A stretch of DNA of 64,000 bases from Candidatus Peregrinibacteria bacterium RIFOXYA2_FULL_41_18. Lineage in GTDB: Bacteria; Patescibacteriota; Gracilibacteria; UBA1369; UBA12470. The position numbers and the translations under genes are program-made. The stretch's first letter is position 1. The number at the start of each line of letters is the position of its first letter. The stretch is taken from assembly GCA_001788795.1 (NCBI GenBank), contig MFXH01000001.1:1-64000 (forward strand), in the 5' to 3' direction. Below are positions 1,844-60,039 of the stretch, piece by piece. The notes beneath the pieces are model-generated. The model was not told the DNA's origin and ran no database searches. It saw only the letters and a program-made list of their open reading frames with translations.

Positions 1844-4800
1844 ATGAGCAATCGAAATAAAAAAATCATTGCAATATCAACATTGGCGATAATAACGCTA
1901 AGCCAATTTCAAATGATTGCGCATGCAAGTAGTAATCCGGTTGTAACAGTCGAAGATCCGATCTATCAAACAGAAACATGTGAAGGAATAGATGAAGATG
2001 ATGAATATACATGGCCATGGCATTCTCACAGCTACACAAATACCTCGGGACCTACTCGCGGAGTTGAATATTGGGCATATTTCAGTGAATTAAGAATCTT
2101 ACTGGATGATGAATTCATGGATTACGTAGACTTAGACAGCATGCTGTGTACAACAAATGTCACAGGTTCATATGTAAGTTGCGACGGAGGTAGTTACCGC
2201 CAAGACTCAGACACAACTGTAACGGTCACATTAGACGAATCAGACCAATACATAGAATGGAGCTGGGGATCTGATTCATCTGACTGGCCATCAATAGCTG
2301 GAGATATGTACAGCAGTGATGAAAGAGATGGCGTAACTTACGAACAAACGGTAGAAAAAGGAGTAAAATTCAAATTTAAAGATGATGCCCCAAGCGGAAT
2401 AACGGTTACAACAAATTCCGAAATATACATGATCTTATACACATGGACAGAAGATGATGAATGGGAAAGATCCGACACGGACTGGGGAGATTGGCATTGG
2501 AATACAGACTCCGCACCGGTTTCAACAACCTACGAATGCGAAGAAGAAGAACTTTACTGCGCCGACCTAGAAATGTCCCCCACAACCCTAACAGCCGAAG
2601 AAGCAGAAGGCACAGTAACAGTGGAAGCTTCATCAGTTGATCAAAACGGTGATGACTGGGAAGACGCAGAAGATTTCGAAGAATATAAGTATTGGGCGGA
2701 GAACGAAGAGGGAGACGACTCAAGCGGAACTTTTCGAGAAAATTATTTGTCCGGATTTCCGGGAGGCACAGGCAATCCGCTCGAAACGGAAGACAACAAG
2801 GTTTATTACTACAATGGCGATGCCGGAGATACGATTTACGTTTGTGCGGTTAACTCCGCAGGCAATTGTATTTCAGACTGCCGCGCCAGCGTCGCAAGCG
2901 AATCCGCACCGGTAACGTGTACAGACCTCGACCTAACTCCAGACTCTCTTACATCAGATGAAGCGGAAGAAGACATTGAACTAAATATCGAAGCAACAGG
3001 CAGCGATGGAAACAATTGGACAGACGCAGATGAATTCAACGGATACTATTACTGGGCGGACTCTTATGTCGGAGACACCGCAATAGGAGAATTTTTTGAC
3101 ACATGGATTTCTTGGTCGGGTTCAAACCCATTCACAGACTGGGATGAAACAGCCTACTACAAAAACGGCGAAGCGGGCGACACCATAACCGTCTGCGCCC
3201 TTGATACATCAGGACAATGTATAGACGCATGTACGGATTCTGTCTCAAGCGACGTGCCATCAGTAGACTGCGACAACCTCACGATTACAGCTCCGGCAAC
3301 ATACAACAGTTCAACATTAACCGCATGCTTCGACATAGACGTTGAAGAATACAACACAGACGGATCTGAAAGAGACGGTATAATCTGCTACGAAGCAATA
3401 GACTTTGCGACAGGTACAAGAACAACGCAAGGTACGTTCTCGGACGGCACAAGAACCGCAGTCGGACGTATCTGTACAAGAAACGATGTCGAATACTGCA
3501 ACGGAAATCAAGGAGATACTATAACTGTTTATGATCAAACTTATCCGACAATTTGTTTGGATACGCTTGAACATAACTTCTGCGGCGATGCGATTCCGCA
3601 ATCACCAAATGATGATGGACAAACCGAGCAATGCGACGACGGAAATGATGTAGATACGGATAGCTGTTCCAACACATGTACGACTCCAAGCGGTCCGGGC
3701 GGAGATGACAATCCGGGAGGCGACAGCGGTCCAGGTGGCGATAGTGGACCGGGAGGTGACTCAGGTCCGGGAGGCGACAGCGGACCGGGAGGAGACTCAG
3801 GTCCGGGAGGCGATACAGCTCCGGGCGGAGACACAGGCCCAACACCAACAAATCCGGAAGCGGGCGAACTTGAAAAAGAAGCACAATCTTACAACTTCAC
3901 AATATATGGTTCGGGCACTGCAGATTCGGCAATACTCGCCCACGATGAAGACTACATTTATTACACATTGACCTACACGGCAGGGTCATCCGACGAAGTG
4001 ACAATCACAGACTCTATCGCATCGGGAGGGATAGATGGAAGCCTCGGCATCGGATCTTATCTTTATTACGAGTCAGGCTCCTTCTCAATCACTCCAGCAA
4101 TTTCAATATGCGCAGAAGAATCAACAGAAACTTGCTATGAACTAGCAAGCTCATCCAATCCGCTAGCAGGAATTACAATAAGAAATTTAACAGAAGGATA
4201 CAGCTTAGAAATCAACTATACGGCAAGAGTCGATTCCAATCTCGACTGCGACAATCCTCCAGAAGGAGTTTGTCTTGCAGAATCATACATAAACGAAGCT
4301 GAAGCCCAAGAGATAGAAATAGAAAACCCTCTCACGGCCTACTCGACAGTCACAGTTATCTGTCCTTACGTCCTGACGAGAAACGCAGGAGATGTTTATC
4401 TTGAAAACCAACTCGATGCCGGAACAAACATCCTTTGCATCGCAAACGATTTTGCAAATTCTGACGGTATAGTTCTGGTCGCTCAAGAACTTGACTCAAT
4501 ACCACTTGAAACAATTCTCAACAGTTTCTCAAGCTACATTACGGAATTATTTTACGCCACTCAAGACGACTGGCTCGTTGCAAGCATCATAGAATCATCA
4601 GAAAACCACATCGCAAGAGCGATGTACAATTTCAACACAATAACTCCCGTAACAACCGATATGACGGCAACAGACTGGGATGACCTTGAAGCACTTAAGA
4701 ACGAAAATAATCTTGCAGAAGAAATTTATTATTTCGATGGAAATAACAATACAAACGATCTGACAATCGGCGACGGATCCAACTTCACAGTCCCACAAGG

Positions 4801-5242
4801 CGCACACACAATCATAGTCGAAAACGGAGATCTTTATATCCAATCAAACATCAAATACATAGATGCGAATTTCGGATTTAATTACTACCTGTATGAAAGC
4901 GATGCTGACTATACAGCTCTCGCATCACTCGCAATAATCGTCTTAAACGGAGACATCTACATAGATCCGAACGTAACAGATTTATCAGGAGTTTTCTATA
5001 TGGATTCCGGATCAATGCAAAGTGAAGGTGGCGTAACAAGAGGCGCAATCGGCGACCAACTTAGAATTTACGGCTCTGTTTACGGCGATATTGACCCGAT
5101 TATCGAGGACAGCGGATTCGTAGGCCCTCCGGAACTTGACCACGGTTCGATTGTAATAAGATATGACGAAAGAGTTATTTTGAACACTCCGCCGGCAATT
5201 TCGGAATACATTGATGTATATTCCGAAAAAACAGCCAGATGA
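1844..5242 (+). CDS. Large secreted modular protein with Cys-rich repeats and a Gly-Pro-Gly-Gly-Asp linker
   Basis: The 1132-residue protein starts with a signal peptide (hydrophobic core about residues 8-20, likely cleavage after AHA near 28). Three related Cys-containing beta-type modules follow at roughly 238-355, 358-470 and 475-578. Each begins C-x-(D/N)-L and holds a YYxxGxxGDTIxVC-like strand. Residues about 579-615 match the Myxococcus-type Cys-rich repeat (DUF4215): CGDAI, then [19 protein letters not shown] linker of (GPGGDS)n spans about 616-665 and separates a DUF11-like adhesin region from a C-terminal beta domain. No sortase motif or C-terminal anchor is visible. The ATG follows a TTTAAATAAATC leader without a Shine-Dalgarno sequence. 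The stop overlaps the next gene by 4 nt (ATGA), so the two are probably coupled. A role in cell-surface adhesion is inferred. Confidence 0.85.
3694..3840 (+). repeat. 18-bp tandem repeat coding for (GPGGDS)n
   Basis: Near-identical 18-bp units of the type GGTCCGGGAGGCGACAGC repeat about seven times inside the secreted-protein gene. They encode a flexible Gly/Pro/Asp linker between the DUF4215 module and the C-terminal half. Third-position changes between units show that it is not a very recent expansion. Confidence 0.85.
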
Positions 5243-6405
5243 AAAAGAAAATCTTGTACATTTTGCTAATAGCCACCCTGATAACATCAGGAATAATTTT
5301 ACTTGAGAACACAGAAAACAGGACACAGAAAACGGAAGAAATCGAAACAACAGAAGAACCACAAGAAATAGGAAGAGAAGAAGTTGAAACCGCAATAAAA
5401 CTTGCCGGAGAAAAACTGAAAGACGATCTGAAAACAAACGGTCAGTTCAATTACATTTACGACCACGCATCGGATTACACTACGGACTCTTACAGCATGG
5501 TACGCCACATATCCGGAAGCAACGCGCTCGTAGCTCTTTATAAATTCACAAAAGACGAATCTTATATTGAAGCCGCAAAAACAAGCATAGATTTTTTCAT
5601 GCAATATCTAATAACCGAAGGAAACAAGTCATATATTTTATACGAATATGAAAACGAAAATGCAGACACCGGCTCGCAAGCACTCGCACTTATAACGTTA
5701 ATAAATTACGAGAACGAAACCGGCGACATTCAATATAGCGACACCATAACGCAACTCGCGAATTTCCTATTATCGATTCAAAACGAAGACGGAAGTTACA
5801 AAAATTATTACCCGAAAGATGATCCGGATTATGCAATGGCAACAGAACTTTTCACAGGAGAAGCAAATTTCGCAATCATGCATATGCTCGAAAGAACGGG
5901 AGAAACAAAATATCTCGCCGCCCTCCAGAAATCTTATGATTTTGTGAAAAACTACTTCGAAAGTACCTACTCATCACCGATAGTTTCTTGGAACTCAAAC
6001 GCATTCGCAAGACTCTATAAATACACCGACAACGCAGAATATGCAGACTTGGTAATAGAAATGACAGACTGGCTGCGAAACTTGCAATACAAAGAAGATA
6101 ATATCGATGACCCTCTTTATGTCGGCGGATTCCGCACGGAGGACCCAGAACAATGGCTCACTTGTACAACGGGAGCATTTGGAGAAGGAATCAACGCCGG
6201 ATTATCAGCCATTCGCGACCAAGGGGATAAAGACCTCGAAGAAAGTTACGACGAAACCATAAGCCTCGCTATAAAATATCTGTTAAGCGTACAGCACGAA
6301 GACGGCAGCTTCAACGCAAGCCCTTCGCAGGAATGGGTCAGAATAGATTTCAACACGCACGCAATAATGACACTACTCGGAGCGCTCGAAAACTATGTGT
6401 ATTAG
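5239..6405 (+). CDS. Membrane-anchored alpha/alpha-toroid protein
   Basis: The 388-residue protein has an N-terminal signal anchor (residues 4-22) and a short charged linker. It then has about six helical hairpins, each holding a short helix-turn such as LLSIQNEDGSYKNYY or LLSVQHEDGSFN. These Q-x-x-DGS(F/Y) turns are typical of alpha/alpha toroid folds, as in terpene cyclases, some glycosidases and alpha-2-macroglobulin-like proteins. No catalytic DxDD motif is visible, so the activity is unknown. The start overlaps the stop of the preceding secreted protein, and the pair may act together outside the membrane. Residues 23-32 (ENTENRTQKT) are encoded by a heptamer array. The stop codon touches a two-hairpin repeat element. 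Confidence 0.75.
   Translation: MKKKILYILLIATLITSGIILLENTENRTQKTEEIETTEEPQEIGREEVETAIKLAGEKLKDDLKTNGQFNYIYDHASDYTTDSYSMVRHISGSNALVALYKFTKDESYIEAAKTSIDFFMQYLITEGNKSYILYEYENENADTGSQALALITLINYENETGDIQYSDTITQLANFLLSIQNEDGSYKNYYPKDDPDYAMATELFTGEANFAIMHMLERTGETKYLAALQKSYDFVKNYFESTYSSPIVSWNSNAFARLYKYTDNAEYADLVIEMTDWLRNLQYKEDNIDDPLYVGGFRTEDPEQWLTCTTGAFGEGINAGLSAIRDQGDKDLEESYDETISLAIKYLLSVQHEDGSFNASPSQEWVRIDFNTHAIMTLLGALENYVY
5307..5334 (+). repeat. Heptamer array, TCTTGTG family, inside a CDS
   Basis: Four 7-bp units in a row (GAACACA, GAAAACA, GGACACA, GAAAACG) are the reverse complement of the TTCTGTG/TCCTGTT words seen intergenically at 59.77 kb. They are read in frame just after the membrane anchor. 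Confidence 0.7.
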
Positions 6406-6511
6406 GCCGGTAGCGAAGCGAACGGCCCTCTACTATCAACCCGTTTGCGTATGCAAACACCACGCACGAAGGGCGCATATTATCAAGCTTGTTTGTGTAT
6501 ACAAACTCCTT
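6405..6511 (+). repeat. Two-hairpin repeat element, copy 1 (extended)
   Basis: Hairpin 1 has arms GGCCG (6405-6409) and CGGCC (6423-6427) around a loop containing GCGAAGCG. Hairpin 2 is GTTTGC-GTAT-GCAAAC (6443-6458). A third hairpin of the same design, GTTTGT-GTAT-ACAAAC (6491-6506), is followed by TCCTT. The element begins on the last base of the upstream stop codon. No U-tract follows hairpins 1 or 2, so they are not standard terminators. The last hairpin lies just upstream of holA. Confidence 0.75.
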
Positions 6512-6548
6512 CTTTTTCTGCTAAAATAGCCTCCCATAAAAACATCAG

Positions 6549-7557: not shown

Positions 7558-7565
7558 CTCTTTTT

Positions 7566-7610
7566 CACTATGTCACTTCTTCAACTTCCCCTACTTCTTC
7601 AATAACTTCC
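7566..7610 (-). repeat. Nonamer array (CTATGTCACTTC family) over the glnA stop
   Basis: The + strand reads CACTATGTCACTTC, then 9-bp units built on ACTTC (ACTTCTTCA, ACTTCCCCT, ACTTCTTCA). The glnA TGA (7599-7601) lies inside. In the gene sense the array ends GAAGTGACATAGTG. Confidence 0.85.
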
Positions 7611-17068: not shown

Positions 17069-17109
17069 CACTGCATCACTATGTCACTTCTTTAACTTCC
17101 CCAACTTCA
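17069..17109 (+). repeat. Nonamer array (CTATGTCACTTC family) before the nucleotidyltransferase
   Basis: CACTGCAT-CACTATGT-CACTTC is followed by the units ACTTCTTTA, ACTTCCCCA and ACTTCATTG. It is the one clear copy that is not in the sense orientation of the preceding gene. The TTG start of the next gene overlaps its end. Confidence 0.8.
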
Positions 17110-17559
17110 TTGACTAAAGTAATCACATTCGGCACCTTCGACTACCTTCATGCCGGACATGAAAGTTATCTGCGCCAAGCCAAAGAAAATGGTGATTATT
17201 TGATAGTTGTCGTGGCACGCGACAAGACTGTAAGAAGTATAAAAGGCGCTCTACCTGATAAACCGGAAAGAAAACGCCTTAAAGCCATAAAATCTCTCCC
17301 ATACGTTGATAAAGCAATCTTGGGCAACAAAGATGATAAGTTTAAATTAATAAGACAACTAAAGCCGGATATAATAGCGCTAGGATACGATCAATTCGTG
17401 TTCACTTACGAACTCGAGAAACTTCTTATCAGAAATAAACTGAATACGCGCATAGTAAGACTTAAACCTTATATGCCCGAAATAAACAAATCATCGATAA
17501 TAAAACAAAAATGCAACTCCCAAGCGGAGATCTCCGAAAACATCTCGGTCGAAGCCTAA
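17110..17559 (+). CDS. Cytidylyltransferase-like nucleotidyltransferase
   Basis: This 149-residue Rossmann-type nucleotidyltransferase has GTFDYLHAGHESYLRQAK (the HxGH motif), RDKTVRSIKG and LPYVDKAILGNKDDKF. The family transfers a nucleotide to glycerol-3-phosphate, FMN or similar substrates. The LKPDIIALGYDQ segment resembles FAD synthetase (RibL) and glycerol-3-phosphate cytidylyltransferase types, and the substrate cannot be fixed from sequence. The only fitting start is TTG at 17110, within a nonamer array. The 3' end overlaps ftsX by 49 nt in another frame. Confidence 0.85.
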   Translation: MTKVITFGTFDYLHAGHESYLRQAKENGDYLIVVVARDKTVRSIKGALPDKPERKRLKAIKSLPYVDKAILGNKDDKFKLIRQLKPDIIALGYDQFVFTYELEKLLIRNKLNTRIVRLKPYMPEINKSSIIKQKCNSQAEISENISVEA

Positions 17560-23931: not shown

Positions 23932-24028
23932 CGCAAATAAATCTAGCAGAATCCTCTCGCTATGTCACGGGGTCACTCGACAATTCAGTAAGATTTTCTT
24001 ATTTGTTTCGAACGATTCCACAGCGCCA

Positions 24029-24080
24029 GGCCGGAGAACGGCCCATCCTATAGGCATGTTTGCGTATGCAAACTCCTTAT
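24029..24080 (+). repeat. Two-hairpin repeat element, copy 2
   Basis: GGCCG (24029-24033) pairs with CGGCC (24039-24043) around a shortened loop. GTTTGC-GTAT-GCAAAC (24058-24073) follows, then TCCTTAT. It lies between rel and the next minus-strand gene, on the antisense strand. Confidence 0.75.
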
Positions 24081-24132
24081 ATTTTTTGTCGAGAGCATCA
24101 TGCATGCTCGAGAAAAATCACTCGATATCCCA

Positions 24133-24174
24133 TTCTGCTTTCTGTGTCTTGTGTCTTGTGTCTTGCTCTCTACT
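24133..24174 (-). repeat. Heptamer array, TCTTGTG family, over a gene stop
   Basis: The units TTCTGCT, TTCTGTG, TCTTGTG, TCTTGTG, TCTTGCT and CTCTACT run at period 7. The TAG of the 331-residue gene (24170-24172) lies inside. Confidence 0.85.
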
Positions 24175-25165
24175 CCAACTCCCCTTCAAATATCAAATTC
24201 AAATCGCTACCCCTGATATCAACAACTTGAATACCCTGCACAAGAGCTTCTCTATTGTAAGCAATGTCAGTAATACGAGCTTCAAGATAAAGCAATCTGC
24301 CGGCAATAAGCTCCATTAATTTGGCCTTAGCCTTATAATTCGCCTTAACCTCAACCTGTTCTTTACCAATTTCTATAAAATTATCCAAAGCCGTAACCGC
24401 GGTATTGCCCTCCGCTTCATTCAACTTGGCAAAAAACTCCTCATCATAAAGAGATTTTTCTTCCGTATTTGCATTAAAAATCGTTTCTAATTCCACCACT
24501 TGATAATCCAAATCCGAAACAATCTCCTCCCCCTCCGCATAAACAGTGTCCATTTCGGAAATCAATTCATCAACCGCAGTCGCTCTATCCGTAAAATCAT
24601 TCAAATAAGCATTAACATCCAAATCCAATAAATTCTGTACTTTGCCCAGAAAATCTATCTGATAAGCAAAATCACTCACAGGATCCTGCTCAACCGCACC
24701 GATATCAACACCTTCCGGCACACCGGTCTTTCCTTGAATACCCGTATCTGTACCAAGAAGAATCCCACCATACAAAGAAGGATCAACCCAATTTTGAGAA
24801 TCTTGATCTTCCGGCACGTCAACAGGAACATACACATCCACAACTTCAACATCTCCATCTTGAGACGAATCTCCTCTACCATTCAAAATACCGACAAAAA
24901 ACTTAATTCCAAATATAACTATAAGAAAAACCACAATCAAAAAAACAACACCTCCAAGACAGAAATAAACATGTTTCTTACTCAATCCGGCATCCTGCAA
25001 AACATTATCCATTTTGCTGGAAAAACTATCCACATCGGAAATAAGATCGGATTCGGGAGTGGCGACCTGAGCAGGCGCATTAGCACTCGCCGCATCACGA
25101 ACAGTTTTGCGTATATCTTGCACGCCTATCTCACTCACAGGTTTTTTCGGACTTTCATCAGGCAT
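24170..25165 (-). CDS. Unrecognised single-pass membrane protein with coiled-coil-like exterior
   Basis: From ATG 25165 (MPDESPKKPVSEIG) the product is 331 residues. One membrane helix (about 68-92, FCLGGVVFLIVVFLIVIFGI) follows a short cytoplasmic segment. An acidic linker and a predicted helical region (about 170-315) come next, with many Glu and Leu. The TTG two codons upstream is less likely as the start. It lies downstream of coaBC on the same strand. Function unknown. Confidence 0.7.
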   Translation of the reverse strand: MPDESPKKPVSEIGVQDIRKTVRDAASANAPAQVATPESDLISDVDSFSSKMDNVLQDAGLSKKHVYFCLGGVVFLIVVFLIVIFGIKFFVGILNGRGDSSQDGDVEVVDVYVPVDVPEDQDSQNWVDPSLYGGILLGTDTGIQGKTGVPEGVDIGAVEQDPVSDFAYQIDFLGKVQNLLDLDVNAYLNDFTDRATAVDELISEMDTVYAEGEEIVSDLDYQVVELETIFNANTEEKSLYDEEFFAKLNEAEGNTAVTALDNFIEIGKEQVEVKANYKAKAKLMELIAGRLLYLEARITDIAYNREALVQGIQVVDIRGSDLNLIFEGELE

Positions 25166-25219: not shown

Positions 25220-26413
25220 TTAGACCACCTCATTCCACACCTGCTTCGCCATCTCCCCTTTCGTTCCTGAAAGCTTCTTTTCGAAATTTTTACCAATCAA
25301 AACACATTCCCCCTCTAAAGAACCTATATTTGACGCATTGTTTTCAACTATAAAATCACACTTCTTCTCCCGTAATTTCTCGCGTGCTCGTCCTATCGCA
25401 AACCCTATGATTTTCTGTCCGCGCTTCTTGTTTTCACCACACCACCCCAATATATCCGGATTTTTCACGAATTTAACCTCCAATCCACCAGCCTTATCGA
25501 TCTTACCTTTAACACATCCGGAAGGCCGAAAATCGGCAACCGCAGCAGCCGAAACGAAATAATCGCACTGCTTGAAATTCTTTTTAACCGCATCAAACAT
25601 TTCGACAGCACTCAAAACACGCACAACATCAATATCATAAGGATCATCGATCGAAACCGGTCCGGCAATAATCTTAACACTCGCCCCTCGAACCCAAGCC
25701 TCTTTCGCAAAAGAGTATCCCATTCGTCCGCTCGAACCATTAGCCATAAACCTAACATCATCAATCATTTCATGTGTTGGCCCAGCGGTAACAAGAACTT
25801 TTTTACCTTTTAGATCTTTTGGCGCCAAAATCCTCTCGGCATAAGCCAAAATTTTGCTAATTTCACTCATCCGTCCCCACCCACTGTCTCCACATGCAAG
25901 CAGCCCTTCTTCAGGCCCAACAAAATTAAAATTTCTCTTGCAAAGTTTCTCAACATTTTCTTGCACAGCAGGATTTTCCCACATCGCAGTATTCATTGCA
26001 GAAGCAACCAGAATCGGTCCTCTGTAAGCCAATATAGTCGTCGTAAGTAAATCATCCGCAATGCCATTTGCCACCTTGCCAATAAAATTTGCGGTGGCCG
26101 GAACAACACAAATCAAATCGTATTTCTGCCAATCGATGTGCAGGGCACCGGAAAGCGAAGCGATTCCGGAGCCTATACTATGAGCCGTTTTGCGGTAGCA
26201 AAACTCATTATTCATCGAACCGCAATCATACATATCAGTAAAAGCACCTCCAAACAACTGAGGCGAAACCAACCTCGTCGCATTCTGCGTCATAACAACC
26301 GAAACCTCGGAAGCGCTCTCGCGCAATCTCCTAACAAACTCGGTAGCCTTACAGATCGCAGCTCCGGCAGTCACACCAACCAAGATTTTTTTACCTTCAA
26401 AATAAGACTTCAT
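25220..26413 (-). CDS. coaBC: Bifunctional phosphopantothenoylcysteine decarboxylase/synthetase
   Basis: CoaBC joins cysteine to 4'-phosphopantothenate and decarboxylates the product, the middle steps of CoA synthesis. The flavin-binding CoaC half has KKILVGVTAGAAICKATEFV, PATANFIGKVANGIADDLL and ASAMNTAMWENPAVQ. The CoaB half begins about residue 195 with GKKVLVTAGPTHEMIDDVRF. Residues 70-89 are encoded by a two-hairpin repeat element on the opposite strand, adding sequence just before the conserved HIDW. The ATGA overlap with panC shows translational coupling. The three genes panB, panC and coaBC run in pathway order. Confidence 0.94.
   Translation of the reverse strand: MKSYFEGKKILVGVTAGAAICKATEFVRRLRESASEVSVVMTQNATRLVSPQLFGGAFTDMYDCGSMNNEFCYRKTAHSIGSGIASLSGALHIDWQKYDLICVVPATANFIGKVANGIADDLLTTTILAYRGPILVASAMNTAMWENPAVQENVEKLCKRNFNFVGPEEGLLACGDSGWGRMSEISKILAYAERILAPKDLKGKKVLVTAGPTHEMIDDVRFMANGSSGRMGYSFAKEAWVRGASVKIIAGPVSIDDPYDIDVVRVLSAVEMFDAVKKNFKQCDYFVSAAAVADFRPSGCVKGKIDKAGGLEVKFVKNPDILGWCGENKKRGQKIIGFAIGRAREKLREKKCDFIVENNASNIGSLEGECVLIGKNFEKKLSGTKGEMAKQVWNEVV
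26148..26215 (+). repeat. Two-hairpin repeat element, copy 5, inside coaBC
   Basis: On the + strand CCGGAA (26148-26153) pairs with TTCCGG (26164-26169) around AGCGAAGCGA. GTTTTGC-GGTA-GCAAAAC (26187-26204) follows, then TCATTAT. The loop GCGAAGCG and the second hairpin match the intergenic copies. It is read in frame by coaBC on the minus strand. Confidence 0.65.
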
Positions 26414-27983: not shown

Positions 27984-27992
27984 GATCTTTCT

Positions 27993-28043
27993 CACTATGT
28001 CACTTCCTCAACTTCTCCAACTTCCCATACTTCCCCTAGTAAC
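27993..28043 (-). repeat. Nonamer array over the stop of the Yip1-like gene
   Basis: CACTATGTCACTTC leads into the units ACTTCCTCA, ACTTCTCCA, ACTTCCCAT and ACTTCCCCT. The TAG at 28036-28038 is inside. Confidence 0.85.
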
Positions 28044-38404: not shown

Positions 38405-38482
38405 ATTAATTTATTATAGAAGAACCGAATCATATAATGAAACAACGCGCTCGTCAACCCGCGATCGCATTTCTAACTAATT

Positions 38483-38525
38483 CACTATGTCACTTCCCCT
38501 ACTTCTCATACTTCTTCTTACAACC
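38483..38525 (-). repeat. Nonamer array over the dnaA stop
   Basis: CACTATGTCACTTC is followed by the units ACTTCCCCT, ACTTCTCAT and ACTTCTTCT. The dnaA TAA (38518-38520) lies inside. Confidence 0.85.
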
Positions 38526-40375: not shown

Positions 40376-40411
40376 GTTTTTATTCCAAATAATTTCTCCA
40401 TCAATCTCCCC

Positions 40412-40446
40412 CTCTGCTGTCTGTGTCTTGTGTCTTGCTCCTTACC
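40412..40446 (-). repeat. Heptamer array, TCTTGTG family, over the rseP stop
   Basis: The units CTCTGCT, GTCTGTG, TCTTGTG, TCTTGCT and CCTTACC run at period 7. The rseP TAA (40442-40444) is inside. In the gene sense it starts TAAGGAGCAAGACACAAGAC. Confidence 0.85.
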
Positions 40447-42037
40447 CCACCACTATCCTTACAATATCTTTGTAGGTCACAACAATCATCAGAAGCATCA
40501 GAAGCATAAATCCAACGCTGTGGAACATCGCTTCGACTTTTCGATTAGGCTTGCGTCCTGTAATCCCTTCAAACGCCAAGAACGCGAACCTGCCGCCATC
40601 AAGCCCAGGAAACGGCACAATGTTGAACGTACCAAGCCCAAGACTCAACAAGGCTGTAAACCTGATTAAAGAAGCAAAACCTTCCTGCAAAAACACATAA
40701 GTCATCTGCGCAATACCAACCGGACCAGAAATGTTTTCAGCAACAGTCCCTTCGATAAACAATTGACCGACAAAACTTTTAAGCATTCCAAAAGTCAAAA
40801 CCGACAGCCTTCCGATCTCATGCCAAGATTCCGCAAATGATGCAAAAAATCCATATTTAGCATCTTTGATTTCCAAAACCGAAGTCGGAACCATTGTCTC
40901 ATAAACAGAAACTCCATTCCCGCTACCGCTATAAATATCAGCGATATAAACACCAACCAATCCGTTCTCATCACGTCCAACCGATAATTCGACAATCTCT
41001 CCATCCCTTTCAACTACATACTCCAAAGTCTCGCCGGCAATACCGGAAGTCGTCTCAACGACATCACTCGCCCTATAAATATCATTCCCATTTATACTCA
41101 ATATCTTATCACCTTTCTGCAAGCCGGCAATTTCAGCCGGAGACCCGTAAACTACTTCCGTTATCAATGAGATTTTTTCTTTCGAAAAAATCTCACCCAA
41201 ATCTACAACCTCACTATCTCTATAAACAACAACACTACCTCCATCACCAACAAAACTCTGATAGTCCTTAACACTTAGAATCTGTTCTCCGCCTATGGTC
41301 AAAACTACATCGCCAACAAGAAAGTTGGAATCCGAAGAAGAATAAACGGCAACTCTCGGTAATTCGAAAGAATAAAGATCAAAACCATATTTGCCATCAG
41401 AATCAGCAGTCATATTTATCTCACGCACAATAGAGCCTTCACTTTCAATCTCAAAAACACCTTCCGTATTAAGGGCTAACGAATCATAAAAAGCATACAA
41501 ATCATCCGCCTCTGCGCCAAACGCAGAAACGATCTTATCTCCAACCTGCAACCCAGCCTGCTCGGCGCTTCCGCCTTCAGAAACAGAATAGACATAGAAA
41601 CCCGGCTCGGTAACAATTTGCCCAGATCTTATTCCATTCAAAAAATCATCCGTCGTCGCAATCAACGGCTCAATTCCGATCATGAAACCAAAACTCAAAA
41701 GCAAAAACGCCAAAATAAAATTCATAACAATCCCTCCAAGGGCAACAACCGATCTGGCTCTAACAGATTTATTCAAATAACTTCTCTTACTGGACTTAGC
41801 CTCCGCTTTACTAACATCTTCGCCAAGCAATCTGACAAACCCACCAAACGGAATCCAATTGATGGAATAAACCGTTTCACCGACTTTCTTGCCAAAAATC
41901 CTCGGTGGCATACCGAATCCAAACTCTTCAACCTTAATCCCAGCCCTCTTGGCAGCCGAAAAATGTCCAAACTCATGCACAAAAACAACAATCGAAAAGA
42001 TAAGAAGGAAAACCAGAATTGAAAGTAAAATTTGCAT
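40442..42037 (-). CDS. rseP: RIP metalloprotease RseP (M50, two PDZ domains)
   Basis: This 531-residue intramembrane site-2-type zinc protease has the zinc motif HEFGH in the first helix, followed by MPPRIFGKKVGETVYSINWI and PFGGFVRLLGED. Two PDZ domains lie at about 135-205 and 270-340 (GLQVGDKIVSAFG, GLQKGDKILSINGNDIY). The third zinc ligand is in FNIVPFPGLDGGRF. It follows pyrH and frr on the same strand, a common bacterial grouping. The leader between frr and rseP is made of nonamer and heptamer arrays. Confidence 0.95.
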   Translation of the reverse strand: MQILLSILVFLLIFSIVVFVHEFGHFSAAKRAGIKVEEFGFGMPPRIFGKKVGETVYSINWIPFGGFVRLLGEDVSKAEAKSSKRSYLNKSVRARSVVALGGIVMNFILAFLLLSFGFMIGIEPLIATTDDFLNGIRSGQIVTEPGFYVYSVSEGGSAEQAGLQVGDKIVSAFGAEADDLYAFYDSLALNTEGVFEIESEGSIVREINMTADSDGKYGFDLYSFELPRVAVYSSSDSNFLVGDVVLTIGGEQILSVKDYQSFVGDGGSVVVYRDSEVVDLGEIFSKEKISLITEVVYGSPAEIAGLQKGDKILSINGNDIYRASDVVETTSGIAGETLEYVVERDGEIVELSVGRDENGLVGVYIADIYSGSGNGVSVYETMVPTSVLEIKDAKYGFFASFAESWHEIGRLSVLTFGMLKSFVGQLFIEGTVAENISGPVGIAQMTYVFLQEGFASLIRFTALLSLGLGTFNIVPFPGLDGGRFAFLAFEGITGRKPNRKVEAMFHSVGFMLLMLLMIVVTYKDIVRIVVG

Positions 42038-42096: not shown

Positions 42097-42124
42097 CTTC
42101 TCTCCCCTCTTCCTCTGCTCTCTT

Positions 42125-42169
42125 CACTATGTCACTTCTCATACTTCCCCTACTTCTTCTACTATATCT
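42125..42169 (-). repeat. Nonamer array over the frr stop
   Basis: CACTATGTCACTTC is followed by the units ACTTCTCAT, ACTTCCCCT and ACTTCTTCT. The frr TAG (42162-42164) lies inside. Confidence 0.85.
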
Positions 42170-44014: not shown

Positions 44015-44049
44015 TTCTGCTGTCTGTATCTTGTGTCTTGCTCCTTACC
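44015..44049 (-). repeat. Heptamer array, TCTTGTG family, abutting the CNB/GAF stop
   Basis: The units TTCTGCT, GTCTGTA, TCTTGTG, TCTTGCT and CCTTACC end 1 bp before the TAG (44050-44052). Confidence 0.85.
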
Positions 44050-44961
44050 CTATATCCCCACTCTCTGTTCTTTCAATCTCACCCTCTCCTTCTCGCCCTG
44101 AGTGCTGTAATGCCTTTCATAAGCCATTCCAAGCTGTTCGGTAACCGCAATGGCAAGTTTAATCTGCTCATCTTCGAATTCACCTTTTGAATCAAACAAC
44201 ACAACCAATCCGAAAAATTTTCCTGAAAAATTTCTAATACCAAGCCACAATAAATTGCCATCATGCAAATATCTCAAACTCGAATCATCAGTGAACAACT
44301 TTGCCTTATCCGCAACAGAACTCTGAGCAAGACCGACAAATGCAGAGTCCGCATCGGAACTTACAGCAAGCACATCCTCTTTTTGCATCGCCAAGTTGTG
44401 CAAGAAAACCATCCCCGCCTCGCAACTGGTCATATCAACAAACTTCTTAAGAACTTCAGAAGAAACAGTCCTTAGATCATCAGGATTACTACCTATGATT
44501 CTCATAACATCATAAAGTGCTATCAATTCCGAATTAACATATTGCAATCTCGCATTAACAACCTTAACGATTTCAATAAGCAATCCTGCGGCATAAGCCG
44601 GATTTTGCTTGAGAAATTTCTCAAAATCTTCTCTGCGAAGCACGCACAGGGAAACATCTGTAAGAGCCTGAGCTGACGCACCTCTCGACTTATCAGACAA
44701 AAGCGCACCTTCCCCGAAAATTCCACCATGCTCAAGGACTGCCAATATTTTCATTCCACCGGAAACGTTCTTAACAATCTGAACTTTTCCTTCAATAACA
44801 ATATACAATTCGGAATTTTTATCACCCTCCTTAAACACAACATCTCCGGCCATAAATCTTTTAATCTCACATAAGGAATTAAGAGAATTGAGCATCATCT
44901 CAAGCTCTTCACCTTCTAGTCCGATAAAGCATTTTTTTAAGGTTTCTTTTAAGTCTTGCAT
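44050..44961 (-). CDS. Cyclic-nucleotide-binding and GAF-domain sensor
   Basis: In this 303-residue protein, residues about 15-125 form a cAMP/CRP-type effector domain (FMAGDVVFKEGDKNSELYIV, GGIFGEGALLSDKSRGASAQ with the phosphate-binding GEGALL). A linker helix and a GAF-like domain (about 150-285, ending FGLVVLFDSKGEFEDEQIKL) follow. There is no DNA-binding domain. Its start overlaps the pilT stop (TAATG), so the two are translationally coupled. It may gate twitching motility or pilus retraction in response to a nucleotide; this is inferred from context only. Confidence 0.85.
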   Translation of the reverse strand: MQDLKETLKKCFIGLEGEELEMMLNSLNSLCEIKRFMAGDVVFKEGDKNSELYIVIEGKVQIVKNVSGGMKILAVLEHGGIFGEGALLSDKSRGASAQALTDVSLCVLRREDFEKFLKQNPAYAAGLLIEIVKVVNARLQYVNSELIALYDVMRIIGSNPDDLRTVSSEVLKKFVDMTSCEAGMVFLHNLAMQKEDVLAVSSDADSAFVGLAQSSVADKAKLFTDDSSLRYLHDGNLLWLGIRNFSGKFFGLVVLFDSKGEFEDEQIKLAIAVTEQLGMAYERHYSTQGEKERVRLKEQRVGI

Positions 44962-46152: not shown

Positions 46153-47847
<1,695 letters not shown>

Positions 47848-50491: not shown

Positions 50492-53200
50492 ATGTCAATT
50501 GACTTCCTTAATATAATTAAATTACAGTCTACTCACGACCAATCTAAAAAAGACCAAGTGTATAAAAAAATTTTGAAAAATGTGCTTGCGTTAACATGGA
50601 TTTCTGTCGTCATTTATTATTATTTTGCAGAAAAAGTTTCTGGAGAAATTGGTTTAATCCACGGCTACTACGCAGAAAGCTTTACAGTCGCCATAAAATA
50701 TCTTTTTTTTATACTTATAATCCCGATCATATACGCCTGTTACTGCCTATATCAATGGATCAACAAAGACCAAAAAACAATAAGCATAAAAATAACAACA
50801 CCAAGAATACTGACAACATTCTGCTTGTTGGTCTTATTCGCTGGAAATGTAGTTTTTTTTGTCAAAACCCCATCCTTCTATCAAGGCAACAGTCTATTCA
50901 TAGCCAATGATGGCCAAATCAAAGAAATCGAAAATCTTTCAAGCTTAACAGGAGACGAAACATTGCTAATAGCAAAAAACTCAGCTTACGAATGGACAAA
51001 TTACCTAATCACAGACGACACTGATCCGGAACTCAAAAACAGATTCGAACAATCAACATTCTGGGGAATCCAATATGGATTGATTACCAAGAGCCTCGGA
51101 ATACTGTTAATCCTCTCATTAATAACGCTAATTGCAACAGGTTTCGGCCATACGATACTGAAATTCATCAAAAAAGACTTGGCATTGGAAACAGATACTG
51201 TTCTTATTTCATTCGCCATAGGACTTTTCTCAATAATAGTTTTTACATTCCTAATTGCAGCGCCGCATTTACTAACCATATATTCAACATGGGCGTTATT
51301 GCTCACAATAGTCTTAATAAGCCGTAAATCAATCTTTGAAATAATCAATAAACTACTTAAATTAAATTATCGAATTGAAACGGGATTTTTCAACATAAAT
51401 CTATTCATAATCTTCGTATTGAGCCTAATATTATCCATGAATTTCATAGACAATATATCGCCTACCGCAAGAGGATGGGATGGAATGAATCAATATGTAA
51501 ACATAGCAAAAAGAATAGAAGAAGCGAAAGGACTGATACAAATGGGTGGCAACTATTATTGGGAACTGCTGATGGGATTCGGATTAATCGCAACAAAATG
51601 GATAACAATCGCGCTAAATCTAGCTTCCTTTTATCCGGCTCTTTTATCGGCAATCGTCTTATATTGGATATTGAGTAAGTTCTCATCAAAAAGCACAGCT
51701 CTCTTAGTAACAGCTTGGTTTTATACTATGCCGATGATGTTATTCCATGGGACAGAAGAAAACAAAGTCGATCTGGGCAACACGTTAATTGCGATGATAG
51801 GCTTTTTAAGCCTATACAAAGGACTGTCTTCAAAAAATACAAAAGATAAACTTATATTTATCGGCATAGCCGGTCTGCTTACGGGATTCTGCTTGGGAAT
51901 AAAGCTCACAAGCCTAATGATAATCTTCACATTTCTAACAATAATTCTATATAAAGAGTTCAGAAAAACAGGTGCGGTAGCTGGATTTCTATTCTCAATA
52001 GGAATGTTATTGATGGGGATGCTCTTAACATCCGACAGCACAAATACCACAAAAGAACTTCCGCCTTACATCATCGGATTGGTTATTGTCGGATCATCGG
52101 TTATTTTGATGGCAATAAAGCTATTAAGAGATAAAAATTATAGGGCTCTACTCGTCCCAACAATTTTCATAATATCCAGCTTAATAGCATTTTCGCCATG
52201 GATGATAAAAAACTTTTCAGAAAATCGTTCTTTAACACCAAACAACTTGCTATTTGGAATTCATCCAGAACCCACAATAGATTACAACTCTCTACCTGAA
52301 GAATTGGCAATAGATGAATCACTCTGTACCGAAACAGGGACAAGAGAAGAATTGGACAGATATATGGGTTACGAAAACAATATAATAAAAAAATACATTA
52401 CTCTTCCTTGGCACCTGACAATGAATGACATCGGAATACTCGGAATGTACATAGATGTCGGATGGATCCCTCTTGCTTTACTAATAGGATTGCTACCATT
52501 CATTAAGCTTAAAAAACCGGATGAAAAATGGTCAATAGCACTCATGTTTTTTATAAATTATTGGTTACTATGGCTTGCCACAAGCGATGGAATAATCTGG
52601 TATGGACTTCCCGGATTTTTAGCCATAAGCATATTAATGGTAGGACTAATCGAAAATTATAAACGAGAAGAAGTTTCACTTCAAAAACTCACAGTCACAA
52701 CGCTAATCCTGATACTTCTCATCCCTGCATTATCACTAAGATTACACAATTTCGGAAGAGGGAATTTGCTTCTCTATATATCAAATGTAATGACAGCAGA
52801 TGAAGCAACCACCGGAATATTTCCATACGGACTGCAAGTACACGATCTGTTTGAAGCCGATCAAGACGGCCGATACGACGAGATTTGGAAAATCGGAACA
52901 TCCCTCAATTACTTCATCGAAGACAACTTCTGGAGAACTTACAATGACCAATACATGGATGTGATAAATTGCCTATATCAAGAAAGAAATCCCGATCTAC
53001 TCACAAAAAGACTGAAAGCATTGGGTTTTGGATACATAATTTTCGATTACAACACTTATGCATTAAGTGCAGATCCCGACGGAACTCTTAATGAAAAATA
53101 CCAAGCAGTCCTCGAATACATATTGAATTACACGGATATAGCAATTCACGACTATTTCAAAGGATATCTAACCGTAAAAATTCAAGGAACAGATCAATGA
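50492..53200 (+). CDS. Large polytopic membrane protein, probable GT-C-type glycosyltransferase
   Basis: The 902-residue protein has an N-terminal helix block (about 30-125), a short exported loop, about ten more helices, then a soluble C-terminal part (about 760-900). Residues 310-445 include DNISPTARGWDGMNQYVNIA and MGGNYYWELLMGFGLIATKW, with Asp in a loop after a helix as in GT-C enzymes. The assignment is by topology only. It overlaps a paralogue by 4 nt. The central 400 bp are almost identical to the paralogue while the flanks have diverged. Confidence 0.8.
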   Translation: MSIDFLNIIKLQSTHDQSKKDQVYKKILKNVLALTWISVVIYYYFAEKVSGEIGLIHGYYAESFTVAIKYLFFILIIPIIYACYCLYQWINKDQKTISIKITTPRILTTFCLLVLFAGNVVFFVKTPSFYQGNSLFIANDGQIKEIENLSSLTGDETLLIAKNSAYEWTNYLITDDTDPELKNRFEQSTFWGIQYGLITKSLGILLILSLITLIATGFGHTILKFIKKDLALETDTVLISFAIGLFSIIVFTFLIAAPHLLTIYSTWALLLTIVLISRKSIFEIINKLLKLNYRIETGFFNINLFIIFVLSLILSMNFIDNISPTARGWDGMNQYVNIAKRIEEAKGLIQMGGNYYWELLMGFGLIATKWITIALNLASFYPALLSAIVLYWILSKFSSKSTALLVTAWFYTMPMMLFHGTEENKVDLGNTLIAMIGFLSLYKGLSSKNTKDKLIFIGIAGLLTGFCLGIKLTSLMIIFTFLTIILYKEFRKTGAVAGFLFSIGMLLMGMLLTSDSTNTTKELPPYIIGLVIVGSSVILMAIKLLRDKNYRALLVPTIFIISSLIAFSPWMIKNFSENRSLTPNNLLFGIHPEPTIDYNSLPEELAIDESLCTETGTREELDRYMGYENNIIKKYITLPWHLTMNDIGILGMYIDVGWIPLALLIGLLPFIKLKKPDEKWSIALMFFINYWLLWLATSDGIIWYGLPGFLAISILMVGLIENYKREEVSLQKLTVTTLILILLIPALSLRLHNFGRGNLLLYISNVMTADEATTGIFPYGLQVHDLFEADQDGRYDEIWKIGTSLNYFIEDNFWRTYNDQYMDVINCLYQERNPDLLTKRLKALGFGYIIFDYNTYALSADPDGTLNEKYQAVLEYILNYTDIAIHDYFKGYLTVKIQGTDQ

Positions 53201-55896
53201 GGTCTCCAGTTGACTTACTCGATATATACAAATACAGTTGCACCAACTTAAGAAAACAAATGTATAAGAAAATCATAAAAAATGTCCTTGCACTAATATG
53301 GATTTCCGTTGTCATTTATTTTTATTTCACACAAACGGTATCCGGAACAAACAGCATTATTCACAGCTATTACACAGAAAGCCTTACCGTCTCGCTGAAA
53401 TATCTTTTTTTCATACTGATAATCCCTATTCTATACGCCTGTTATTGCCTATACATATGGTTTAACAAGAACAAGAAAACCATAAGCATAAAAATATCAG
53501 CGCCCAGAATTCTTATAACATTTTTCTTACTCCTTATACTTGCTGGTAATACAGTTTTCTTAATAAAAACACCATCTTTCTATCACGGAGACAGTTTGTT
53601 TATAACAAGTGACGGTACACTGAAAGAAGTTGCCGACATATCAACGATAAGCGGAGATGAAACACTGATCGTCGCAAGCGAATCCGCATACGAATGGACA
53701 GACTATGCGATAACCGACGATGTCGACCCTGTACTCAAAAACCGATTCGAGAAAGCGACATTCTGGGGAATACAATTCGGACTTGTTTCAAAAAGCTTGG
53801 GAATAATATCGATGCTATTTCTAATAACACTGATTGCAACAGGGCTGGGGCATACAATACTGAAAACAATTAAGAAAGATCACGTACTCGATTTCGACAA
53901 CGCAATAATCGGATTCGGGACAGGTCTTTTTTCAATAATACTAATATCTTTCATAATCGGAGCCCTACACGTACTTACTATATATTCGGCATGGGCACTT
54001 CTTATTGCAATGGGAACAATAAGCTATAAATCGGTATTGGAAATACTAAAAAAGCTGTTCAAAACGAGTTTTAGCGTCGAAACCAGCATGGCAAATATAA
54101 ACATCTTTATAATATTTGTATTGGGGATGGTACTTACCATGAATTTCATAGACAATATATCGCCTACCGCAAGAGGATGGGATGGAATGAATCAATATGT
54201 AAACATAGCAAAAAGAATAGAAGAAACGAACGGACTGATACAAATGGGTGGGAACTATTACTGGGAACTGCTGATGGGATTCGGATTAATCGCAACAAAA
54301 TGGATAACAATCGCGCTAAATCTAGCCTCCTTTTATCCAGCTCTTTTGTCGGCAATCGTCTTATATTGGATATTGAGTAAATTCTCATCAAAAAGCACGG
54401 CGCTCTTGGTAACAGCTTGGTTTTATACTATGCCGATGATGTTATTCCATGGGACGGAAGAAAACAAAGTCGATCTGGGCAACACGTTAATTGCGATGAT
54501 AGGCTTTTTAAGCCTATACAAAGGACTATCTTCAAATGACAGAAAAGAACAACTAACCCTGCTTGGAATTGCCGGATTAATGTCGGGATTATGCCTTGGA
54601 ATAAAAATAACAAGCTTAATCCTCATATTCACATTTATTACCATAATTTTATACAAATATTTCAAAAAAACGGGCGCAGTAGCGGGATTTCTATTCTCTT
54701 TAAGCGCACTATTAATCGCTGAAAAAGCAATCATCATAAACGAGCTACCAATACCTCAAGAGATATTCGGAACGGTCGGATCAATACTAATGCTTGTTTC
54801 GATAATTCTGATCATTTGGAAAACATTTAAACAACATAGCTTCAAACCTCTGATATCGCTTCTTATCTTCACTGCATTCGCAATAACAGCATTCATGCCA
54901 TGGATGATCAAAAACTATTCGGAGGGAGGTTCTTTTTCACAAGCGGAACTACTATTCGGGATAAACCCTCAACCGATAATAGATTATGAATCTTTAACCG
55001 GAGAACTGGCTATCGATGAAGCCTCTTGCGCCGAAACCGGAACAGAAGAAGAACTGGACAGATATATAGGGTACGACTCAAACACTCTGAAAAAATATTT
55101 AACATTCCCATGGCATTTAACAATGAACGACATAGGTGTACGAGGATTGTATGTGGATTTCGGATGGCTCCCTCTTGCTTTACTGATAGGATTGCTACCA
55201 TTCATTAATAGAAAAAACATAGATGAGAAACTGATAATAGCCTTTTTGTTTTTTACGACTTATTGGTTTCTCTGGCTCATCACAAGCAACGGAATAATTT
55301 GGTATGGGCTTCCCGGCTTCTTAGCAATAAGCATATTGGCAGCTCAACTGATCGAAAACTACAAAACAGAAGAACATACTCTACAGAAATATTTAATTCC
55401 GGCATTAATAATAATCTTAATCATCCCAGCATTATCTTTCAGGCTATACAATTTCGGGAAAGGAAGTCTTCTCCTATACACTGCAAACGTCATGACCGCG
55501 GATGAAGCAACAACAGGCATATTCCCATATGGACTTCAGGTACACGACCTTTTTGAAGCAGACCAAGACGGACAATACGACTTGATTTGGAAAATCGGAA
55601 CATCGCTTAATTACTTCATAGAAGATAACTTCTGGAGAACATACAACGATCAATACATGGATGTAATGAACTGCTTATATACGGAAAGAGATCCAGATCT
55701 ACTTACAAAAAGGTTAAAAGCTCTAGGATTCGGATACATAATTTTCGATTACTACAGCAATACATTAAGTATAGATCCGAACGGCACATTGAACGACAAA
55801 TACCAAGCCATAATAGATTATGTACTCAATTATACGGAAATCGTAATACCGGATTATTTCAGAGGACATTTGGTTGGAAAAATCATAGGAACATAA
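53197..55896 (+). CDS. Tandem paralogue of the preceding membrane protein
   Basis: The 899-residue protein is collinear with its neighbour throughout: the KKIIKNVLALIWISVVIYFY start, the same helix pattern, and the end DQYMDVMNCLYTERDPDLLT. The first ATG at 53197 overlaps the previous stop (ATGA), so both are made from one message. The C-terminal conserved block (NVMTADEATTGIFPYGLQVH) is shared. It probably has the same role with a different substrate, inferred from the divergence outside the converted core. Confidence 0.8.
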   Translation: MRSPVDLLDIYKYSCTNLRKQMYKKIIKNVLALIWISVVIYFYFTQTVSGTNSIIHSYYTESLTVSLKYLFFILIIPILYACYCLYIWFNKNKKTISIKISAPRILITFFLLLILAGNTVFLIKTPSFYHGDSLFITSDGTLKEVADISTISGDETLIVASESAYEWTDYAITDDVDPVLKNRFEKATFWGIQFGLVSKSLGIISMLFLITLIATGLGHTILKTIKKDHVLDFDNAIIGFGTGLFSIILISFIIGALHVLTIYSAWALLIAMGTISYKSVLEILKKLFKTSFSVETSMANINIFIIFVLGMVLTMNFIDNISPTARGWDGMNQYVNIAKRIEETNGLIQMGGNYYWELLMGFGLIATKWITIALNLASFYPALLSAIVLYWILSKFSSKSTALLVTAWFYTMPMMLFHGTEENKVDLGNTLIAMIGFLSLYKGLSSNDRKEQLTLLGIAGLMSGLCLGIKITSLILIFTFITIILYKYFKKTGAVAGFLFSLSALLIAEKAIIINELPIPQEIFGTVGSILMLVSIILIIWKTFKQHSFKPLISLLIFTAFAITAFMPWMIKNYSEGGSFSQAELLFGINPQPIIDYESLTGELAIDEASCAETGTEEELDRYIGYDSNTLKKYLTFPWHLTMNDIGVRGLYVDFGWLPLALLIGLLPFINRKNIDEKLIIAFLFFTTYWFLWLITSNGIIWYGLPGFLAISILAAQLIENYKTEEHTLQKYLIPALIIILIIPALSFRLYNFGKGSLLLYTANVMTADEATTGIFPYGLQVHDLFEADQDGQYDLIWKIGTSLNYFIEDNFWRTYNDQYMDVMNCLYTERDPDLLTKRLKALGFGYIIFDYYSNTLSIDPNGTLNDKYQAIIDYVLNYTEIVIPDYFRGHLVGKIIGT

Positions 55897-57426: not shown

Positions 57427-58827
57427 TCAGTTCTAGAAACGAAAAAGTCACACGCAAAAAAAGCAAAAAACTTTAAAAAATTCTGGAAGCTTGGACGCAA
57501 AGAATTCAACACCCAGTATTTTGACTTAACCGGCGACGGTGAACTTGTAATTAACGAGGGCAACTATCAATACAATGTTCGCGAACTTGCAGAAAAATAC
57601 GGCACTCCCCTGAAAATCATGATGCCGTATGTTATTGAACAAAGAGTCGAAGACCTCATGGACACATTCGACGACGCAATTCGCGAATTCAAATACAAGG
57701 GCCAGTTTTACTACCACTATCCGATGAAAGTGAATCAGAGCCGCGAATTCGTTTTGCCGATCATAAGCGAAGGCGGCAATCTTGAAATAACTTCCGCAAA
57801 CGAACTTTGGGTAGTAAAAAGATTGTGGCAGCAACACAGATTTAATTCACACATAAAAGTTGTCTGCAACGGACCAAAAACGCAACAATATCTGGAGCTT
57901 ATTGCCGAACTCAAGAGTAATGGCTTGGATATTGTTCCAATAATAGAAGACTTGTCGGAAATGGAATTGCTCAAAAAATTCCGAGGACAAGTTGGCGTAA
58001 GAGTAGATATAGGCGTAAAAGTCGATTCATATTGGGATAAAAAAATAGAAAGATTCGGATTATCGATAGATGAAGTTTTTGCAGTTGAAAAAATCAGAAA
58101 CCTAACAATGCTTCACTACCATACGGGCTCGGAAATCAAAAAGGAAAGTGACGTAGTGAAACCACTTAAAAAAGCCATGGATATATACGCACGGCTCAAG
58201 AAAATAAATCCGTCTCTCGACACGATCGATATGGGCGGCGGATTCCCAAGCAATTATTATGGAAAACCTTTATATCCGGTAAAAGGACTTGTTTATAGAA
58301 TTGTTAAATTCCTCGAGCAATACTGCCGAGAAAACGAACTTCAACCTCCAAATATAATATGCGAATGGGGTAGCCATGTGGCTGGACCGGCTCAAATAAC
58401 GGTTTTCTCTGTAGTTTCGGAAAAAACAATACCGAAAGCTATGGCAAAACAATGGTACGTAATAGACGGGAGCTTCATGACACAGCTTTTGGATACATGG
58501 TCGATACACAAACAATGGCACGTCGTACCGGTAAATAACGCGAGAAATAAAAAACTTACAAGAACATGGCTGGCCGGACTCTCATGCGACTCGGACGACA
58601 AATATACCGCAGGAGGCAATTATATTCTTCTACCGCGCCTTGAAGATCTCGAAAACGGAGCTCATCAGTATATAGCCTTCTTAGACACTGGAAATTACCA
58701 AGATGGATTCACAAACCATCACTGTCTGAATGCTGCACCGGCAAAAGTATTGGTACAAAACGGTGACGTAACCGTGGTCAGAAAAAGAGAAACTCCGGAT
58801 GACGTGGGAAAACTGTTCGGATGGTAA
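57427..58827 (+). CDS. speA: Arginine decarboxylase, PLP alanine-racemase fold
   Basis: This enzyme converts arginine to agmatine. Motifs: the PLP Lys in HYPMKVNQSREF, LHYHTGSEI, the phosphate-binding IDMGGGFPSNYYG, EWGSHVAG and the C-terminal SCDSDD. The type resembles the Bacteroidetes biosynthetic enzyme. The first ATG (57619) falls after the conserved VRELAEKYGTPLKIM. Homology-like sequence (KEFNTQYFDLTGDG) also runs upstream, but no ATG, GTG or TTG exists back to a TAA at 57424, so initiation is unresolved. The true start is probably between 57427 and 57500. Agmatinase follows, making putrescine. Confidence 0.9.
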   Translation, partial: SVLETKKSHAKKAKNFKKFWKLGRKEFNTQYFDLTGDGELVINEGNYQYNVRELAEKYGTPLKIMMPYVIEQRVEDLMDTFDDAIREFKYKGQFYYHYPMKVNQSREFVLPIISEGGNLEITSANELWVVKRLWQQHRFNSHIKVVCNGPKTQQYLELIAELKSNGLDIVPIIEDLSEMELLKKFRGQVGVRVDIGVKVDSYWDKKIERFGLSIDEVFAVEKIRNLTMLHYHTGSEIKKESDVVKPLKKAMDIYARLKKINPSLDTIDMGGGFPSNYYGKPLYPVKGLVYRIVKFLEQYCRENELQPPNIICEWGSHVAGPAQITVFSVVSEKTIPKAMAKQWYVIDGSFMTQLLDTWSIHKQWHVVPVNNARNKKLTRTWLAGLSCDSDDKYTAGGNYILLPRLEDLENGAHQYIAFLDTGNYQDGFTNHHCLNAAPAKVLVQNGDVTVVRKRETPDDVGKLFGW

Positions 58828-58857
58828 GGCCGGTAGCGAATGCAATCTCCTTATCCC
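58828..58857 (+). repeat. Two-hairpin repeat element, copy 3 (deleted form)
   Basis: GGCCGGTAGCGAATGCAATC then TCCTTATCCC, directly after the speA stop. It retains the first-loop word and the tail of the element but lacks the middle. Confidence 0.6.
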
Positions 58858-59706: not shown

Positions 59707-59708
59707 TC

Positions 59709-59736
59709 AGTAAGGAACAAGACACAGACAGCAGAG
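59709..59736 (+). repeat. Heptamer array, TCTTGTG family, after speB
   Basis: AGTAAGG, AACAAGA, CACAGAC and AGCAGAG form the same gene-sense word as after rseP and the CNB/GAF gene, 3 bp beyond the speB stop. Confidence 0.85.
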
Positions 59737-59763
59737 GGGAATTCCACTCTCTTTTTTTCACAT

Positions 59764-59906: not shown

Positions 59907-60039
59907 CCAAGACCAAATAATTATGTTCTAGGATAACTCGCAAGAGTTCTAGTTTCTCAATGTGAAAATCCAATCCAAAACGACCTCTTTTTTTCACGTT
60001 GCGACAGAAAAAACTAAAAACAAATTTACAAATAAAACC

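Follow-up and report, generated by a model that had tools for sequence, protein, structure and literature searches.

An in-frame insertion of a dispersed two-hairpin element in the coaBC gene of a Candidatus Peregrinibacteria genome

The coaBC gene of Candidatus Peregrinibacteria bacterium RIFOXYA2_FULL_41_18 carries, close to the codon of a conserved His, a stretch that forms two hairpins on the strand opposite to the gene. Has a dispersed element entered this gene in frame, and if so, to what kind of element does it belong? We addressed these questions in the window, by which we mean the whole stretch of 64,000 nt that was analysed (contig MFXH01000001.1, positions 1–64,000, forward strand), in the genome it comes from (G000) and in relatives.

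The insert in CoaBC

A preliminary description of the window placed two hairpins and a characteristic tip on the plus strand, antisense to coaBC, and both the folds and the reading frames bear this out. The span given there, 26148–26215, has the right location, but it starts too late, so that the outer arm of the first hairpin is truncated, and it runs slightly too far on the other side; the covariance model gives 26141–26213. The features of the locus are as follows.

25220–26413, minus strand: coaBC (PPC decarboxylase and PPC synthetase), the host gene; Pfam Flavoprotein and DFP; stop-free ORF of 397 aa
26138–26140, minus strand: codon of the invariant His92, two residues past the insert (invariant column; AtHAL3a alignment)
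26141–26213, plus strand: two-hairpin element, antisense to the gene (covariance model R2, E = 9.2e-13; R1 match)
26141–26143, plus strand: 5' tag CAG (position counts over 62 copies)
26144–26212, minus strand: inserted 69 nt encoding CoaBC residues 68–90, NNEFCYRKTAHSIGSGIASLSGA (orthologue alignment with G001/G002, M-x-H pattern, pLDDT)
26144–26173, plus strand: hairpin 1, GGC/GCC and CCGGAA/TTCCGG (folds, covariation)
26155–26162, plus strand: GCGAAGCG tip of hairpin 1
26174–26184, plus strand: conserved linker TATACTATGAG (alignments A2/A3)
26187–26204, plus strand: hairpin 2, GTTTTGC-GGTA-GCAAAAC (folds, covariation)

Element-free relatives encoding the same residues would speak against an insertion. 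The 23 residues at positions 68–90 are instead missing from both orthologues of the same family (G001/L081 with 56% and G002/L082 with 54% identity), and none were found in the readable CoaBC homologues from many other phyla. An insert had been proposed at residues 70–89; the insert holds, with its limits moved to 68–90 by the same-family comparison and the placement of the 69 nt ambiguous by about 3 nt. The distance from the LF motif to the active-site His is 41 residues in the window CoaBC vs 24 in G001 and 17 in G002. The M-x-H motif, intact in relatives (SEMGH, DAMAH), is split here, with M67 followed by 23 residues and then by L91 and H92. Judged by these alignments, the coaBC stretch is an in-frame insertion without a counterpart in the relatives.

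The insert ends two residues ahead of His92, which agrees with the proposed position just before a conserved His. This residue is invariant among 19 aligned CoaBC proteins and corresponds in a PDB alignment (residues 90–189 vs 88–190 of 1mvl) to His90 of AtHAL3a, which is needed for the first catalytic step (PMC9604783). We presume that His92 is the catalytic base. The closest solved relative of the window protein is the 6tgv CoaBC. An AlphaFold2 model based on a 19-sequence alignment had a mean pLDDT of 87.4, and the sole segment below 50 comprised residues 64–90. On this basis we predict that the insert forms a disordered loop adjoining the active site. The CoaBC of another member of the order (L084 in G023) has an unrelated expansion (...TVALRQAQGDR...) in the same loop before the His, which suggests that this loop may accept inserts repeatedly.

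A dispersed family of two-hairpin copies

The coaBC copy belongs to a dispersed, covarying two-hairpin family. Covariance models found about 70 copies of this interspersed element of ≈70 nt in the 1.24-Mb genome, with 71 matches for the full-length model R2 and ≈60–70 for R1, which was built on the 3' half. R2 was restricted to the 27 most alignable copies because MAFFT failed on hairpin 1 across all subfamilies. Querying the genome with the coaBC stretch led to nine further places with similar DNA, and a 30-nt core pattern had no other match (expectation 0.00 in window shuffles). No family was found in the window at the Rfam gathering score, and a search of five loci against Rfam returned tRNAs only.

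From 5' to 3' the element consists of a (C/T)AG tag, hairpin 1, a CATATTATNAAG linker, hairpin 2 and CTCC. The YAG tag has A in 61 of 62 copies and G in 58. The commonest arms of hairpin 1 are GCGCAAGGA..TCCTTGCGC or GGCCG..CGGCC, and its tip is GCGAAGC, which we take to be the classic extraordinarily stable DNA mini-hairpin. Hairpin 2 has the consensus GTTTTGC-NNNN-GCAAAAC. In some copies a second palindrome of the CCTGCCTGTCGGCAGACAGG type replaces or extends the tip of hairpin 1 or of hairpin 2, as if nested:

G000 C18:33104–33188
G000 C9:26254–26344
G002 C2:88719–88811

Across the 27 aligned copies, standard pairs made up 92.6% of the pair cells vs 80.1% in shuffles, and changes on both sides were seen at 13 of 18 base pairs (0 of 500 shuffles were as good). 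Pairing fell to about 36% when the partners were slid by one column. The coaBC copy alone folds with z = −4.35 using DNA energies. Folded as RNA, it is only weakly better than shuffles (z = −1.7 to −2.7), and the significance is therefore carried by the family. G-U cells on the plus strand outnumber A-C cells (11 vs 6), a slight lean to RNA that is neither significant nor decisive for the choice of strand. Since the copies are 67–89% identical to their nearest neighbours (median 0.80, maximum 0.89), either the spread is not very recent or it involved several lineages.

The distribution among relatives is patchy. R2 gave 71 matches in the host genome, 29 in G002, 9 in G051, 4 in G040 and 1 in G001, and few or none in the others of the 59 relatives searched. 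Of 380 genomes drawn evenly across the phylum, the host genome and G002 alone reached an E value of 1e-4, in a scan that scored few candidates per genome and missed weak relatives. One copy in G001 (L095, C17:48704) and one in G002 (L116, C2:129321) share a near-identical flank (TAAGTAGAAAAAGGCGTGTTACCA in G002) across two genera while their neighbouring ORFs differ. They may descend from one ancestral copy or belong to an element that is longer.

Copies in reading frames and at gene 3' ends

The in-frame entry into coaBC is not isolated, as the element lies in frame in at least seven further genes of the same genome. These cases were identified from reading frames over all copies, Pfam and comparison with homologues. 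In the transketolase N-subunit, the alignment to 6yak runs to residue 45 and resumes at 71 with one residue between, and the G001 orthologue is an empty site at the DNA level that defines an insert of 69 nt. Endonuclease IV (nfo) has about 20 extra residues compared with 1qtw. IlvD also carries an insertion against its homologues, and in DprA, where the element lies in sense, the extra residues are missing from the same-family orthologues. GmhB-RfaE (with the element between its domains), a FemAB/DUF218 protein and a radical-SAM protein (no PDB match) were assigned by in-frame position alone. Three genes of G002 add to these: a PabB-type gene with two copies, the second clear against 1k0e, and two glycosyltransferase genes with one copy each.

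At least 12 copies lie inside reading frames in the two genomes, 9 antisense and 3 sense (p = 0.15, not significant). Stop codons were considered as a cause of this lean and are not supported, as 56 frames are open in sense vs 51 in antisense over 45 elements. The element was initially labelled non-coding. This is right insofar as the element lacks its own gene, yet several antisense copies share one frame and give related peptides (GVSHSRNxLxxGAxNASRP).

Many other copies touch the 3' ends of genes. We surveyed 86 copies from G000, G002 and G001, of which 12 begin 0–3 nt past the CCA end of a tRNA, all 12 in sense. Another 15 have a long ORF of the same sense upstream and start no more than 4 nt from its stop codon, a placement shared by 1.25% of random positions in the same loci; the scripted count is 16, from which we excluded the copy at G002 C6:60896, located within PabB. 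In some of these copies the stop codon is a TAG or TAA supplied by the element itself. The antisense arrangement was absent from tRNA ends and was seen a single time at a convergent CDS end, at a distance of up to 4 nt. CDS calls were simple longest-ORF calls, so individual stop-codon cases may err, and the tRNA cases are independent of them. Besides coaBC, the window holds the following copies, all on the plus strand.

6403–6468, plus strand: copy whose TAG terminates the upstream ORF 5239–6405
6470–6516, plus strand: second copy, in tandem (R1 coordinates)
24027–24083, plus strand: intergenic copy
58827–58857, plus strand: degenerate remnant directly after ORF 57619–58827, with the start of hairpin 1 fused to the end of hairpin 2
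62234–62303, plus strand: copy that overlaps the stop of ORF 59962–62235, which lies upstream

The same architecture, with a CATATAAATAAA linker, occurs in G051 and G040 from another family of the order. Here 2 of 8 examined copies directly follow a tRNA according to ARAGORN, and 2 more follow a tRNA-like CCA by eye.

We consider it very probable that the coaBC copy is an insertion of a lineage-specific, non-autonomous and structured mobile element resembling REPs and RPEs. The abutment to 3' ends could reflect retention, exaptation or targeting. Its exactness exceeds what neutral retention alone explains, which counts against the reading as a mobile element of this kind.

The element could instead be primarily a functional RNA 3'-end signal, such as a terminator, a processing site or an exonuclease block, with the intragenic copies as accidents of dispersal. 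The sense placement after tRNA CCA ends and the stop-abutting copies would fit such a role, as would the recurrence of the tRNA placement in another family and the stems maintained by compensatory changes. However, a T run after hairpin 2 is missing in most copies, many copies are located away from 3' ends, the copies inside reading frames are mostly antisense, and the element is patchy among relatives. We regard a primary role of this kind as possible but rather unlikely.

Since the abutment is exact and goes beyond mere closeness, insertion might also have been targeted to RNA or gene 3' ends, for instance if an RNA or cDNA intermediate became attached to tRNA CCA or mRNA ends. Against this, no reverse transcriptase was found in the host genome, intragenic insertions occur in both orientations, and REPs touch stop codons too without such a mechanism being known (PMC3733652). 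Targeting of this type seems improbable to us, and we give as little weight to a specific insertion in sense at RNA-gene 3' ends, behind tRNA CCA or at stop codons, by a mechanism unlike those of known bacterial interspersed repeats, with the intragenic copies as off-target events.

It is very doubtful that the inserted coaBC is a decaying pseudogene and as such uninformative on tolerance. The gene was detected in 10 of the 59 relatives searched, and its absence from most of them would fit decay; it also gives no support to the earlier description of coaBC as essential. The accompanying claim that the element entered without breaking the gene agrees with a gene that is otherwise intact. The frame is, however, full-length with conserved motifs and a confident predicted fold, and panC and panB adjoin it, with a Fumble-type (pantothenate-kinase-like) gene close by. 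Finally, an ordinary divergent loop resembling the element by chance can hardly be entertained: the loop length does vary among CoaBC relatives, including the expansion in L084, but this reading is contradicted by the covariance E value, the BLAST-level matches to other copies and the similar insertions elsewhere in the genome.

Relation to known repeats and possible route of spread

The best-known cases of palindromic repeats spreading in frame through protein genes come from Rickettsia and a small number of REP-rich species. A mobile element in coaBC would extend a similar process to a different, streamlined lineage, with another element design and beside an active-site residue.

RPEs are short palindromic repeats of a reduced genome that lie in frame in unrelated protein genes and give recurring peptides, and no transposase dedicated to them is known (PMC10969869, PMC3733652). 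They measure about 150 bp, and RPE-4 and RPE-6 belong to the CGTC REPs (PMC10969869, PMC3733652), which apparently lack a dedicated transposase (PMC3733652). The present element is likewise dispersed in a small genome and found in frame in unrelated genes with related peptides, and insertion of the RPE type was found against homologues in coaBC, transketolase, nfo, ilvD, dprA and pabB. It differs from RPEs in its length of about 70 nt, its two unlike hairpins and its YAG tag. A CGTC tag was present at the left edge of 1 of 62 copies and at the right edge of 1 of 62, and the text searched gave no instance of RPEs directly abutting tRNA CCA.

GTAG and CGTC REPs are located mainly downstream of genes, supply TAG stops and are sometimes intragenic, adding 20–30 residues (PMC3733652). 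The element is similar in being a short palindrome that is mostly downstream of genes, with stops from its TAG edge and some intragenic copies. GTAG was seen at the 5' edge of 4 of 62 copies (nearby in 5 of 62), the consensus being (C/T)AG. Unlike for GTAG REPs and their RAYTs, a search for Y1 transposases (IS200/IS605, RAYT; PF01797) gave none in the 99%-complete host genome, with positive controls in E. coli and others. Because both tags are missing and the two-hairpin design is different, we did not file the element as a member of the REPs or RPEs. It appears to work like the GTAG and CGTC REPs with a separate design, and is set apart from the RPEs by their published descriptions.

MITEs are small, non-autonomous and dispersed elements that sometimes lie in frame in genes (PMC10969869). 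In contrast to these, pairing in our element takes place within each of the unlike hairpins, and no terminal inverted repeats join its ends. Target-site duplication was not significant: flanking k-mers were not above shuffles for k = 4–7, and k = 8 gave a weak excess (2 copies vs 0.2, p = 0.025). A literature search, mostly of papers outside subscription, found no such element described in CPR bacteria.

With neither a Y1 transposase nor a reverse transcriptase found, the mobilising enzyme is therefore missing, unrecognised or gone. Viral contigs searched with two element patterns gave no match. The difference between DNA and RNA fold z, the lack of target duplication and the GCGAAGC tip would fit recognition as single-stranded DNA, like that of REPs by RAYT. 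The element may spread as a single-stranded DNA hairpin, with a trans-acting nuclease cutting it at the YAG edge and joining it to the target without duplicating the site; the single-strand nuclease step by itself is a serious candidate that we would still place somewhat short of an even chance. Copies that break genes would be lost after insertion, and intragenic copies would persist where their length is a multiple of three, the frame is open and the site is a surface loop, giving a neutral peptide insert as in CoaBC. Sense copies exactly at the 3' end of a gene may be tolerated best or be kept, as a hairpin just past the CCA or stop codon could be harmless or could protect or end the RNA.

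The precise positioning of copies after tRNA CCA ends and stop codons forms a clear pattern that an experiment could resolve. As two genera of one family provide both filled and empty sites, the tolerance of enzymes for inserts of ≈23 residues is directly testable.

Other repeats are also present in the window. A separate interspersed repeat has the core ACTATGTCACTTC followed by pyrimidine-rich repeats, with eight direct copies and one inverted:

7560–7600, 17071–17111, 27987–28027, 38477–38517, 42119–42159, 46154–46194, 29155 and 43980: ACTATGTCACTTC repeat, direct
18411: ACTATGTCACTTC repeat, inverted

Another interspersed repeat, with the core CTGTGTCTTGTGTCTTGCTC, is found at 24133–24181, 40405–40453, 44015–44063 and 59699–59739. 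An 18-nt tandem array at 3692–3837 lies within the long ORF 1844–5242. Finally, the adjacent ORFs 50492–53200 and 53197–55896, each of ≈900 aa, represent a gene duplication with DNA blocks that are 71–79% identical at a spacing of 2702 nt.
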